A stretch of 64,000 nt of DNA. Origin: Ridgeia piscesae (lineage: Eukaryota; Annelida; Polychaeta; Sabellida; Siboglinidae). The position numbers and the translations under genes were made by a program. Positions 7,559-57,800 of the stretch are shown here, in pieces; position 1 is the stretch's first letter; each line of letters begins with the position of its first letter. The stretch is from positions 575,001-639,000 of the forward strand of contig JAODUO010000080.1 in assembly GCA_025642075.2 (NCBI GenBank), read 5' to 3'. Under the pieces are notes generated by a model. That model made no database searches. It was not told the origin of the DNA and saw only the letters and a list, made by a program, of their open reading frames with translations.

Positions 7559-10500
7559 CTGTGGACACGGACAGGACGATACATACAGATGAGTCGTGGG
7601 ACAAATGTTCACTTATTTAACTTATTGGTTTAGCATATTTATTCCAATATTTGATCGTTAATTATTGTGTGCTGCTGGAATGGCTGTCCACAATTAAATT
7701 TGGCTGATGTACCAATTACTAAGAAGCACTGGTTACATACGTGATTTTATTGTGTACATACATTATTACGTGATTTAAATGTTACGTTTTTATGCCCCCT
7801 CCTCAGTGCAAAGTTTATATCTATTCTATGGATGGACAATAAAGTTATTATTGTCATTACTTTAACACATTTATTTAAGCTATTTATTTAACTAATGGCG
7901 CTTTTAAAATGTTTCCAAATAAATAAATAAATGTTCTCATTGGGGGGAGTCGATGGGAGGGTGGGGACTCCTGTATGTCCCCAAATGAATGTCACACCGG
8001 CATTAGCATGTGCAGGTTTTTTTCGCTCATCAGGCTAAGACCTTTCTACGATCAATACTTCTGACTTACTTGATGATAAAAATGTATAACTAAAACGTAC
8101 TCTATGACGAGATCTAATTGAAGCCATTCTTTGAAGTTCAAATCACACAACTACTGAAGTCTTTACAAATGCACCATCCAACTCACGATAATCTGTATTA
8201 TAAGTGTAATAAAAAACCATGCAAGGCACAATTAGTTTATTTTGAATCTTTTTTAAATTGCTCCCACCAACAACCACGACTGTTGTTATAATAGTTCTTC
8301 CTCTCAATGATCACAACTGCGACCATGACATTTAAAACATTCTAAACGTTGCTCGCATTTCACCCTACGTGAGGCTAGAGACGTTTACTGTCAGTGACAA
8401 ACAAGACATGACGAGTCCTCCTCACCTTCCCTGGCTTCTTTCTCCAAGGCGTCCCAATCCTTCCCCTCCTCCTCACTTGTACCCAAGTCTTCCTCCGATG
8501 CAGACCCTAAAATGCACATGATTGTTAGCCTACATATTACTACTAGCATTAAATGGAGATGGGATAAAACAGTTGTGCATCTAGTTTTGTACGCAAACGC
8601 AATCAATCGTCCATAAGATTTTTGGAACACCGAGTCTGTCACAGTGCACAGCCTAGGGTCATGTGACCACCAATTGAATGTTTTAATTGGTCGCCGCACC
8701 AACTGTGTGGAATTTGATTACAAGATTGCTTAATCTCTTGTTTTGTCACGCCACTGAGCTTGATCTTTGAGCATATTGTTGCTAGGGTACTATTTCACAA
8801 CACTTATGAACTCTTGAGGAAAATTCATCATTAAACAAAACCGTTGTTAAATTAAAAAAAAATTCATAACGCAAATATCCACTGCCGTGTTACCATGGAC
8901 ACTATTTCCATGACACACCAGTGACAGTGTCTCGCTGGCACATCAGGGTGTTGACAGTTTGCAGGCAGTCAAGATCATTGCTAAGGATAAAAATCAATCT
9001 TATAGTGCAAAATTGAGTTTAGAAGATCTATACTTTAGTGAAATGGTTCCCAGGTCACATGATGCACTGGTCAGTAGCTCACTCACCTGACTCGTCCTCG
9101 TCAGACCAGTTCGACTCCTCGCTGTCCTCGCTGCTGCTCTCCTCCTCATCCTCGATGTCAGTCGGCTCGTACACAATGTCCTCCTCATCCTCATCATCAT
9201 CGTCGTCTTCATCATCCTTCAATGTACACTCAGGATCACAAACATTATAAGGACAATGAGACCATGCCCAGACCCAAACGAGGAGACCATGCCCAGACAA
9301 GTACGAGGAGACCATGCCCAGATCCATACGAGGAGACCATGCCCAGACCCAAACGAGGAGACCATGCCCAGACCCATACGAGGAGACCATGCCCAGACCC
9401 AAACGAGGAGACCATGCCCAGACCCATACGAGGAGACCATACCCAGACCCAAACGAGGAAATCATGCACAGACCCAAAAAAGGAGATCATGCTGAGCCTC
9501 AAAAGAGGAGACCATGCCCAGACCCATTCGAGACCATGCCCAGACCCAAACGAGGAGACCATGCCCAGCCCCAAGAGGAGACCATGCCCAGACCCATACG
9601 AGGAGACCATGCCCAGACCCAAACGAGGAGACCATGCCCAGACCCAAATGAGGAGACCATGCCCAGACCCAAACGAGGAGACAATGCCCAATCACAAACA
9701 AGGAGACATTACCAAATTACAAACAAGTAGACCTTGTCCAATCACTAACAAGGAGACCTTCCCCAATCACAAGCAAGGAGACCATGTTGAATTCACTACC
9801 CCGATATGAAAATTTTAATTGTAGTCAGGTCGAGCCACCAATCTCAAGTTCTTTAAAGGCATTGGACAGTAGCTTAACACTTCCCCTCATTACCAAACTA
9901 CCAAATGTACCAAATTACAGTGCAATGATGTCAGAATAAAGTTGTGTACTGTATGGCTCGAGAGAGTACATATGATTATAAGATATGTTCAGACTGTATC
10001 AGACCAATGAATTTTGACCAGAATGAACATTCATCAATTCAAAAAGTATTTAGACAACATCACATCCATACAACAGCAACTGTAAACCTTTTTTGAGACA
10101 GCTGGAATAAGTTTCACAGCACCACACCAAGACGTCCAGCTACTGTTACAGCACAGGGTGTGAAGCTGCCCGGTAATCTACTTCTAGCTACGACTTACAT
10201 CATTCTGGGTGTCCAGGAACGACCAACCGCCACCTTCAAAGAATCCGTTTGGGTCGTCAGTGATCGTCTTCATAATCTTGGCCCAGTTGAGACTCTGGAC
10301 GCCCTCAGTGTAATAAATGTCACATGAGCTGGAAAAAGACGCAACGTTTAGTCTCTTCAAACTTGTGCGGAGTAGAGTATGCTTAACGCAAATTCAATAT
10401 TTTATTTGAATATGTGATATCCTTTTTTCCAAATCCAGAAATGTTATAAAACTTTCTAAGTTGCATAATAGATATCGTTACTTGATATCGACAGGCTTGA

Positions 10501-54800: not shown

Positions 54801-57800
54801 AGCAGACAGTGTGAGAGCAGACAGTGTGAGAGTTGACAGCGTGAGAGCTGACTGCGTGAGAGCTGACTGTGTGAGAGCAGACAGTGTGAGAGCAGACAGT
54901 GTGAGAGTTGACAGCGTGAGAGCTGACTGCGTGAGAGCTGACTGTGTGAGAGCAGACAGTGTGAGAGCAGACAGTGTGAGAGGTGACTGCGTGAGAGCTG
55001 ACAGCGTGAGAGCAGACAGTGTGAGAGGTGACTGCGTGAGAGCTGACTGCGTGAGAGCTGACTGTGTGAGAGCAGACAGTGTGAGAGCAGACAGTGTGAG
55101 AGGTGACTGCGTGAGAGCTGACTGCGTGAGAGCAGACAGTGTGAGAGGTGACTGCGTGAGAGGTGACTGCGTGAGAGCTGACTGCGTGAGAGCTGACTGC
55201 GTGAGAGCAGACAGTGTGAGAGCTGACTGCGTGAGAGCAGACAGTGTGAGAGGTGACTGCGTGAGAGGTGACTGCATGAGAGTTGACAGCGTGAGAGCTG
55301 ACAGCGTGAGAGCAGACAGTGTGAGAGCTGACTGCGTGAGAGCAGACAGTGTGAGAGCAGACAGTGTGAGAGGTGACTGCGTGAGAGCTGACAGCGTGAG
55401 AGCTGACTGCGTGAGAGTTGACAGCGTGAGAGCTGACTGCGTGAGAGCTGACTGTGTGAGAGTTGACAGCGTGAGAGTTGACAGCGTGAGAGCTGACTGC
55501 GTGAGAGCAGACAGTGTGAGAGCAGACAGTGTGAGAGGTGACTGCGTGAGAGCTGACAGTGTGAGAGCTGACTGCGTGAGAGCTGACTGTGTGAGAACTG
55601 ACTGCGCGAGAGCTGACTGCGTGAGAGCTGACTGTGACACATGCTGCATCAAAGACACAGTAAACACAGCTACCAAAGACTACAGCAGCACATTCTACAG
55701 AAACATACATAAGGTATCTTGAACTGAAAATTACTCATAAGAAATTTGGCTTGTATTGGAATACATATCTGCTGATCAGTCCACTATTCAGTAATCACGT
55801 GTCTAAGTCTAACATGTTGTAAACACAACTAAACATCATGTCTAGTGCAATATGCCAACTGTATGTGACTACAAATTAAACACACTACGTCTATAATGTG
55901 CAGTCCTGAAATGTAATTACGCACTAAAAATCCATTACGAGTGTAAATGTTAATTATTAAACACAATCTGACTGAGTGAAATATACCAGAGTGACAAGCC
56001 ACTTACAGTGACCTGAGTGGAGCCGTAGTCGTCATCGTGCTTCCTCTTCTTCTCCTTCTTCACAACATTCTCACTCTTCACTTCACTCGTGTCCAACTTT
56101 CCAATCTTTGGAGCTCTGAGTGAAACAAATCGTAAGGTGTGATCTAACTAGTTGCCACGCCATCTTCTTGCCAAACAGCTCTACTTCCTGTCATGTGCAT
56201 CTGTTTATTACAGCAACGCGTCCAGTAAAAACATTGTGTTATCTAACTGCTTGGTAGGAAAGATGACATTAATAAAAATAGCATGCTTATTGTTTTGTCA
56301 CATCTTGAATAAATGTGACAGCATTTCACATGTGAAGTGATAACTTTCTAATTTGTAGCATGCATGGTTCATAGTTTAAGATAAATCTTACTATTTGCTG
56401 TGTTAGCTTACTGGAAATTCAGGATTTAGGACACTGGTGACTCTACACATTTTGTAATTAGTAAAATCTTGAAGCACTTTGATTGGTATTGATTTGCCTA
56501 AATTGTTATTTTATCTTCATATACTTCTTCTACAGCCAAACAGTCTGAATAGTCGATACAACTGAAGCGGCTGACTGACACACATCCCACTTTCACAGGT
56601 GTGTAAACTCGGGTAACTTTCATTCAACTAAGAAATGCAAAGACAAGAAATATAGAGATGACCTGAATGTGGGAGAAAGAGAAAAAATGGAGCAAAATTG
56701 AGGATGAGGAAGTTAGACAGGGAAGGGGAGAGGGAAACAAGATATGCAACAGTCATATGCACTACTTACCTGTCAGACAAGGGCATGTCATCGTCAGAGT
56801 CCACAGGTCTTTTGACTGCGACTGTCTTTGAACTGAGTCTACTATCCTACAAATCACAAACTCCATCTCATCACGTCATGGCAATGAATATTTCAAATGT
56901 GACAAGACATTTGTCTAATATACGTTATATAGTCAAATGCAAAACTATACACATAATTTAAATGGAATATATAAGTCATTTATTTAATATTGGAATAATT
57001 GCAAAATGAACCATAAAACTGACTATTAGCAATATGATACTCAAATACATAAGACATGAACCAATATTGAATGAAAGTTAAATATAGTTTTCATAAATTA
57101 ATCAGCAGTAAATGTCCTACACTATGAACTCTAGACCCTATAGAGCCAGAGTGAGGCAGCAACAGCAACATGATTCAAACAGACTGCATTAACTAAGAGT
57201 ACCATGCTCCAAGTACTGTGTTACTGGTACTACTGTGACCTAAATTGTATATCATACTGCGACATGTTTGCTAACAAAGTTTGGCCCGAGTTTCCCTTTC
57301 TGGTCTTAGAGACAGAAACAGACATCCCGGCAAAGAAACAAATGATGCTACCAGACACAGTGGGGGTCCACAGTAAACTGAAGGCAGAGCAACGTGACAA
57401 GGACTTAGCCAAGCTCTGCAGTAGGTCTACAGCTGTCAGTGATCACTGCTACAGAATCACACAAGTTCCAAAACAAAGTTAGCTACTGCTGGTGGCCCCT
57501 ACATATGTGCGACATTTGTGTAAATGAGGTCATGATTTTTTTCAGAAACTTACACGATACTGATAGTCGGATGTTGTGTTGGGGTCTTTCTACAGCTGTG
57601 AAATAACTACAAACTGTTTCACAACACAGATGAATTTCCATAAGAAGTTTTCATCCGAGCTGTAAACCTACACTCACCAGTGGCATGTCATCATCGCTTT
57701 CTTCTGTCTTTGGTCTCTTGACGGTGATCTTTAGTGGTGACGAGCTGTGAGATTTCACTGGCGAAGGGAGCGGCTCTGTCTTTATTGTGACACGTGACTC

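Follow-up and report, generated by a model that had tools for sequence, protein, structure and literature searches.

Minisatellites at splice junctions of SUPT16H and TOP1 in Ridgeia piscesae resemble the mirages of lancelets

Why do seven minisatellites in the introns of two genes all lie at exon boundaries, and how do these genes remain readable? The question was addressed in a window of 64,000 nucleotides (contig JAODUO010000080.1, positions 575,001 to 639,000) of Ridgeia piscesae, a deep-sea vent tubeworm. Our analysis indicates that the arrays are probably minisatellites of the mirage type, i.e., local tandem duplications of DNA that are tolerated through splicing at the exon-side copy.

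Host genes and their seven arrays

SUPT16H and TOP1 were mapped as open spliced frames comprising 37 introns (74 junctions), and the exon maps were compared with solved TOP1 and SPT16 sequences and with database SPT16 proteins:

9087..34504, minus strand: SUPT16H (FACT subunit SPT16), 24 coding exons mapped, 953 codons, stop-free
42897..52586, minus strand: TOP1 (DNA topoisomerase I), 14 core exons mapped, 594 codons, stop-free

The C-terminal exons of SUPT16H, down to 7419, were traced by eye only and its first exon lies outside the map, while the N-terminal exons of TOP1 (about 56.0-58.4 kb) were mapped in part. The SUPT16H product is a 100% match to a Ridgeia piscesae protein. All seven arrays described in the initial annotation were recovered by TRF at the same places:

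9258..9790, minus strand: A1, 25-bp minisatellite in a SUPT16H intron, separated by 41 nt from the downstream acceptor (exon 9216-9087)
13017..13558, minus strand: A2, 21/22-bp minisatellite, separated by 17 nt from the downstream acceptor (SUPT16H exon 12999-12874)
16948..19129, minus strand: A3, 20-bp unit × 111, joining 10 nt of exon end to 10 nt of intron start (donor)
29369..32321, minus strand: A4, 35-bp unit × 85, acceptor junction
46754..47009, minus strand: A5, 45-bp unit × 5.7, made of 21 intron nt and 24 exon nt coding LALRAGNE
49068..49505, minus strand: A6, 27/41-bp array with the unit TTGTTGTAG + GTGAGTTGGCTGGCGTGT (coding VSWLAC)
52624..55634, minus strand: A7, 15-bp unit × 201 (coding-strand sequence GCAGTCAGCTCTCAC), separated by 37 nt from the downstream acceptor (TOP1 exon 52586-52483)

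For A1, TRF returned rows at 9258-9707 and 9253-9783, and the range 9258-9790 was taken; the bounds of A2 are the span of its rows, which include higher-order periods of 43 and 64 bp. Array-free sequence amounts to 246-658 nt in six of the seven introns, and A6 occupies its 460-nt intron except for 40 nt. Introner elements are dispersed repeated sequences that carry splice sites; the seven units in the window, in contrast, are unlike each other (TRF). A search that skipped simple repeats, run with a 601-nt query containing part of A1, returned its own locus and weak matches on contigs C331 and C103.

It is very unlikely that the arrays are artefacts of assembly. Long arrays are difficult to assemble, and the 2023 Ridgeia piscesae assembly is, in the accessible part of its description, based on Illumina reads; however, the assembly searched here comprises 628 Mb in 4875 contigs, against 575 Mb given there for the published one, and is presumably of long-read origin. 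The window is free of N, one variant base of A4 is arranged in blocks, and copies differ from one another inside A3 and A6, a pattern expected if the arrays are real and undergo turnover.

Splice-junction content of the arrays

At the level of the DNA, A3-A6 repeat the splice junction itself in tandem, joining exon end and intron end in about 6 to 111 copies. Both boundary types are repeated, the donor in A3 and the acceptors in A4-A6, and the arrays overlap the following mapped exons by 10, 16, 24 and 18 nt, respectively:

19120..19202, minus strand: SUPT16H exon whose donor is repeated in A3 (exon end at 19120)
29233..29384, minus strand: SUPT16H exon whose acceptor is repeated in A4
46526..46777, minus strand: TOP1 exon whose acceptor is repeated in A5, checked against solved TOP1
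49005..49085, minus strand: TOP1 exon whose acceptor is repeated in A6, checked against solved TOP1

The A4 unit consists of 19 intron nt ending in TTGCCAG and 16 exon nt, AAAGTGAAGCACAGTA. Decoy sites are accordingly numerous, with 82 donor-like GTAGGT motifs in A3 and acceptor-like copies in A4 (82) and A6 (13); A2 holds 17 TTCAG motifs. When junction 24-mers were compared with their own introns, four of the 74 had copies matching at 22-24 of 24 positions and the remaining 70 all stayed at or below 16/24. Per-junction control values for the four repeated junctions (0.12-0.88) are uninformative, since the control words were drawn from the same array-filled introns.

No significant likeness was found between A1, A2 or A7 and their own junctions. 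A gapped score of 17 for A7 against its own donor ranked first of 37 and was reached by 3 of 500 shuffles; it was discounted because the alignment is long and gapped and its target is a low-complexity array of 3 kb.

An intact junction copy is kept, and both genes read through with open spliced frames. Compared with solved and database proteins, joining at the exon-side copy yields the conserved protein; the expected joins at A2, A3 and A4 are present in database SPT16, an entry that stops short of the exon beside A1. Were an upstream acceptor copy used instead, a stop would be met before the true exon in 80/81 cases for A4, 4/4 for A5 and 12/12 for A6.

Distance to splice sites in the window and in other genes

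The initial annotation placed the arrays within about 45 nt of a junction, six at 3' and one at a 5' splice site, and held that this would rarely arise by chance. Measured on the exon maps, all seven edges lie 0-41 nt from a junction (0 for A3-A6), at six acceptors and one donor. With placement anywhere in array-free intron, seven of seven within 41 nt has a probability of about 5 × 10⁻⁷, and with each array placed within its own intron only, Fisher's P is 1.5 × 10⁻⁵. Taken singly, A1, A2 and A7 are compatible with chance (P 0.15-0.19).

Two 9-bp arrays, absent from the earlier description, are counter-examples: 48386-48460 is 544 nt and 50950-50993 is 444 nt away from a splice site, and both sit in a dispersed repeat. 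Among 23 hand-picked short or low-copy runs in the mapped introns, these two included, only one lies within 41 nt of a junction. Such runs would include early stages of array growth, and in the window they are not concentrated at junctions.

The proposal that array edges genome-wide lie closer to splice sites than expected was examined on myosin and kinesin exon matches in the same genome and held to a moderate degree, at about twofold. The 129 exon matches have 258 sides, of which 19 had an array edge between -45 and +50 nt; random points in the same DNA, drawn from 190 kb of myosin loci only, predict 8.8 (ratio 2.15, P = 0.002). Farther out, at 50-250 nt, the two agree, with 18 for exons and 17.2 for random points. 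A cruder pseudo-exon control, in which arrays may cover up to half of the pseudo-exon, gave 0.98 arrays per kb over the first 50 nt, compared with 1.65 at exons (1.7-fold; 20 vs 11.9, P = 0.02). Sample exon edges are edges of HMM matches rather than of mapped transcripts, myosin matches with internal stops were retained, and the matches are non-independent, as several derive from a single gene, with a few loci being near-identical duplicates.

Counted by eye, 10 arrays straddle the junction and 12 lie within 45 nt of it, among 298 sides of 149 matches. Uniform seeding would give 7.0-8.7 (P 4 × 10⁻⁶ to 1 × 10⁻⁴), but judged by the pseudo-exon controls this raw hazard comparison exaggerates the excess. 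Arrays of at least 3.5 copies entered the block density used for the value of 7.0, and the near set admitted those of at least 2.5; 21 of the 22 near arrays have at least 3.5. Sorting into straddling and near was done after viewing and was confined to arrays within 50 nt of the match edge, which excluded those at 50-60 nt (L047, the donor side of C570, and L137). L047 lies 38 nt from its called acceptor. The microsatellite-like L071 was left out of the near set and L059 was retained after re-inspection; a two-copy duplication (L058) and its relative L057 were excluded from the array count.

A junction copy of 19/24 or more was found at 6 of 189 callable junctions, a splice call being absent for 69 of the 258 sides. 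Straddling arrays outside the window include the donors C404, L032 and L125 and the acceptor L085; in C404 and L125 the donor call fell on a copy within the array and not on the match-end copy. The bias toward 3' splice sites reported for the window did not extend beyond it, with 8 acceptor and 14 donor sides.

We consider it improbable that these are ordinary intronic minisatellites of a repeat-rich genome whose junction pattern is chance in a window picked as striking. The 190-kb sample holds 45 arrays, the crude control yields a modest ratio, the window was chosen after the fact, and three of its arrays singly fit chance; yet the excess was seen again in exons that had been selected without regard to it. 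Among 20 further exons, one array straddled the junction, two lay within 45 nt of a donor, one lay 55 nt from the match and none was farther away. Two intron-spanning kinesin matches (C1025:97168, C353:688181) were skipped and C161:58041 was also left out, and therefore these 20 are not the next in rank.

Retention by selection near splice sites, where added acceptor tracts or donors would strengthen or buffer splicing, also seems unlikely. In L049, L062 and L094 the array reaches the acceptor and itself forms the tract, which would fit such a role, but use of nearly all upstream copies in A4-A6 would lead to a premature stop and unit compositions are very different. The related idea that arrays survive only where splicing tolerates them would not by itself lift their density above that of the freely tolerant intron interior. 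The excess may reflect more frequent seeding rather than selection.

Relation to known systems and possible origin

The initial annotation named no comparable system, but amphioxus mirages are a named kind and human CBS provides parallels. Mirages, described from Adh3, troponin C and globins, with PGBD5 compared to them, are minisatellite-like tandem copies of the 5' or 3' exon/intron boundary in which AG/GT is kept in many copies and regular splicing is reportedly undisturbed (PMC3087553, PMC3902484, in the portions available); allelic and somatic instability has also been reported there. Ridgeia shares the unit across the exon-intron boundary (four of the seven window arrays, though not A1, A2 and A7, and 10 of 298 sampled sides), the occurrence at both 5' and 3' boundaries, and the persistence of an intact junction copy. 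The host is a vestimentiferan polychaete and not a cephalochordate, whereas the available texts report mirages from lancelets, a group treated here as their known range, not their definition. Copy numbers reach 85-111, against 6 and 3 given for the amphioxus globin BflGb6, and the junction excess was measured here on a sample. The arrays look like a known kind from lancelets, and one that seems unusually common in Ridgeia piscesae.

We propose that an array would be seeded by local tandem duplication within roughly 45 nt on either side of a splice junction, after which slippage or unequal exchange would lengthen and homogenise it. A seed straddling the junction would yield copies carrying the splice site. 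Splicing would then take the exon-side copy, most simply by exon definition; the gene would survive because this copy is used, so that the extra copies leave with the intron.

That junction DNA nucleates arrays, as first suggested, agrees with the junction content of A3-A6 and with the twofold excess; A1, A2 and A7 contain no junction sequence. We tentatively entertain the stronger reading that junction DNA is a hotspot for tandem amplification, with an array across or within about 45 nt of several percent of splice junctions and up to about 80 near-identical decoy sites per intron ignored by the spliceosome.

A mutational hotspot driven specifically by transcription-linked damage (R-loops, nicks or stalled forks at exon borders) is rather doubtful. 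Array density is raised near exon matches and not at 50-250 nt, and of the 64 intron segments outside arrays, at most 1.6% equal or exceed the GC skew of A2-A6. The R-loops of the earlier proposal are weakly favoured by G-rich skew on the coding strand in 20 of 28 skewed units (P = 0.036; just the first 60 nt of the 85-nt L032 unit entered the count), but outside the window the count is 14/21 (P = 0.19). A7 and seven of the 21 skewed units outside the window are C-rich, acceptor junctions are positively skewed anyway, skew is not consistently highest at the four repeated junctions, and short or low-copy runs do not lie at junctions. GC skew as a general rule was rejected on the C-rich units and the junction skew comparison. 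Reverse-transcribed splicing intermediates, also suggested earlier, are disfavoured: the A3-A6 units are contiguous unspliced DNA, and inspection of their edges by eye revealed no exon-exon or donor-branch joins.

Introns with dozens of near-identical donors or acceptors offer natural tests of how the spliceosome chooses sites, exon definition especially. A junction-centred excess, if true, would indicate an as yet unexplained connection of gene structure with DNA instability, as well as raw material for intron gain. Occurrence in both an annelid and lancelets would make such arrays a recurring animal feature, not an amphioxus oddity.

Other systems share parts of this pattern, as far as the available portions of their descriptions go. 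The human CBS 31-bp VNTR (exon 13-intron 13) and CBS 844ins68 likewise place a tandem repeat at an exon-intron boundary; they are single loci, and 844ins68 has only two copies. In intron gain by tandem duplication (potato RdRp; PMC4974935) the duplication also includes splice signals, whereas the Ridgeia duplications are intronic and the protein is continuous across the expected junctions. No junction arrays of this kind in annelids were found in the literature searched. Earthworm metallothionein genes are an annelid case of intronic minisatellites, present in two clones with monomers averaging about 180 nt and given no splice-junction placement in the accessible text; another clone carries exon 4 duplications that are absent from the transcript, one copy being reversed (PMC12783039).

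Structure and position of the arrays

Both SUPT16H and TOP1 lie on the minus strand of the window. Joining 24 SUPT16H exons gave a stop-free SPT16 frame of 953 codons, matching a Ridgeia piscesae protein at 100% identity over 95% of the query and a Lamellibrachia satsuma protein at 91%; 14 joined TOP1 exons gave 594 codons of DNA topoisomerase I. The products are collinear with solved SPT16 and with the solved topoisomerase I structure 1a31, which we take to be the human enzyme. None of the TOP1 protein matches listed (120, many without a name) was labelled Ridgeia.

The initial annotation had placed seven minisatellites close to splice sites. 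All seven were recovered by TRF, and their edge distances, measured on 37 mapped introns (74 junctions), range from 0 to 41 nt:

A1, 9258-9790, SUPT16H (minus strand), acceptor, 41 nt
A2, 13017-13558, SUPT16H (minus strand), acceptor, 17 nt
A3, 16948-19129, SUPT16H (minus strand), donor, 0 nt; unit of exon TTATATGTCG and intron GTAGGTTGTC
A4, 29369-32321, SUPT16H (minus strand), acceptor, 0 nt; unit of intron end TTGCCAG and exon AAAGTGAAGCACAGTA
A5, 46754-47009, TOP1 (minus strand), acceptor, 0 nt; unit of intron end TTGTAG and exon codons LALRAGNE
A6, 49068-49505, TOP1 (minus strand), acceptor, 0 nt; unit of TTGTTGTAG and GTGAGTTGGCTGGCGTGT
A7, 52624-55634, TOP1 (minus strand), acceptor, 37 nt

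A3-A6 are copies of the splice junction itself: their junction 24-mers recur at 22-24/24 within the same intron (4/74 junctions), and at the other 70 the best same-intron copy reaches at most 16/24. Comparison of A1, A2 and A7 with their own acceptors revealed no significant likeness. At A2, A3 and A4 the database Ridgeia SPT16 is joined as expected. Over window 7419-10199 it reads through the donor ahead of the A1 intron and terminates there, ending VSRS; it has none of the acidic C-terminal exons, which begin next to A1, and the Lamellibrachia SPT16 runs on past that point, much like the later exons in the window.

Related dispersed repeat copies occupy two TOP1 introns (48005-51167) and carry two mid-intron arrays of the 9-bp GCAGCTACA. 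A near-perfect CACGCG hexamer array (788-1088, 50 copies) lies in the left flank, outside both mapped genes.

Junction proximity in the window and across the genome

Since the window was picked for this pattern, its P values flatter it: with arrays placed anywhere in array-free intron, 12.7% of which is no more than 41 nt from a junction, seven of seven gave P ~ 5e-7, in line with the earlier expectation that chance would rarely do this; confining each array to its own intron gave a Fisher P of 1.5e-5; at least four of seven units straddling a junction gave P = 6e-4 to 8e-4, or 4e-5 with 8 nt required per side; and A1, A2 and A7 taken singly gave 0.15-0.19.

The assembly (G000; 628,048,202 bases, 4875 contigs; window at C80:575001-639000) was searched for myosin-head and kinesin exons, with 75 and 128 matches listed. 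Sequence was analysed for 149 of the 203 (69 myosin, 80 kinesin), which are not independent: a single gene may supply several, and a few of the loci duplicate one another almost exactly. The 190 kb surrounding 29 myosin matches held 45 arrays (period at least 10, copies at least 3.5). On the 258 sides of the first 129 matches, the nearest array in the outward direction lay at 0-50 nt in 20 cases (overlaps included), 50-100 in 5, 100-150 in 1, 150-200 in 6, 200-250 in 6 and 250-300 in none.

Against pseudo-exons placed at random in this 190 kb, the first bin held 1.65 versus 0.98 arrays per kb, a 1.7-fold excess (20 against 11.9 expected, P = 0.02); the pseudo-exon bin is also raised, because this crude control permits an array to take in as much as half of a pseudo-exon. 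A stricter control held overlap to about the exon level (6758 random sides, all from the myosin loci). On this sample, a comparison of array edges with random positions, of the kind proposed initially for the whole genome, then yielded 19/258 sides at -45 to +50 nt against 8.8 expected (2.15-fold, P = 0.002), with bounds chosen after the exon counts were known; overlapping arrays numbered 10 against 4.2, outside ones 9 against 4.6, and at 50-250 nt 18 were observed against 17.2.

By eye, nine of the 20 near cases straddle the junction (two, at C59 and L124, overlapping only a few exon nt), ten lie within 45 nt and one (locus L071) was dropped. Twenty additional kinesin exons contributed four arrays: one straddles the junction, two come within 45 nt of a donor, and the last lies 55 nt from its match. 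Combined, 22/298 sides carry near arrays, against 7.0 expected from block density (mean unit 38 nt; P 4e-6) or 8.7 from flank hazard (P 1e-4). A TRF-free test on called junctions found a copy of at least 19/24 in 6/189, the remainder reaching at most 17. The six-to-one acceptor bias did not extend beyond the window (8 acceptor, 14 donor sides).

At locus L018 (G000:C272:244673-244957), the unit of a 66-bp array looks by eye like an acceptor leading into PMGILALVDE, which resembles the start of a myosin exon and is absent from the matches listed. Contig C162 carries a pair of similar kinesin genes, oppositely oriented and ~30 kb apart (~447-451 kb and 479-482 kb; loci L038, L039, L057, L058). 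L057 and L058 are nearly identical in part, with similar match positions on C3753, and L058 has a two-copy duplication spanning its acceptor. Several contig sizes are round (340000, 342500, 412500, 605000, 770000, 815000), a hint that contigs were cut or padded to set lengths.

Origin and tolerance

The A3-A6 units are contiguous genomic DNA crossing the unspliced junction, which makes DNA duplication the simplest source; we hypothesize that duplication of junction DNA gave rise to them. The 27-nt step of A6 is bounded by two GTGTT words, one intronic and one exonic, as slippage would predict. A G-rich coding strand is common among array units, not general.

Although no named system had been recognized initially, junction minisatellites are described in amphioxus as mirages (PMC3087553, PMC3902484). 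For annelids, none appeared in titles or abstract openings among the open-access matches listed. An earthworm metallothionein gene has minisatellites in a first intron, and another clone has exon-4 duplications not in the transcript; the available part of that paper (PMC12783039) does not place these arrays at splice junctions.

A3 contains 82 GTAGGT motifs and A4 82 acceptor copies. Splicing at 80 of the 81 upstream copies in A4, 4/4 in A5 and 12/12 in A6 would bring in a stop ahead of the true exon; the conserved protein is given by the exon-side copy only. Use of that copy in splicing would allow an array to be tolerated, and human CBS 844ins68 offers a studied parallel. Of the initial proposal that arrays survive only where splicing tolerates or uses them, the tolerance part falls short by itself, as tolerance alone is unable to lift junction density above that of the intron interior.
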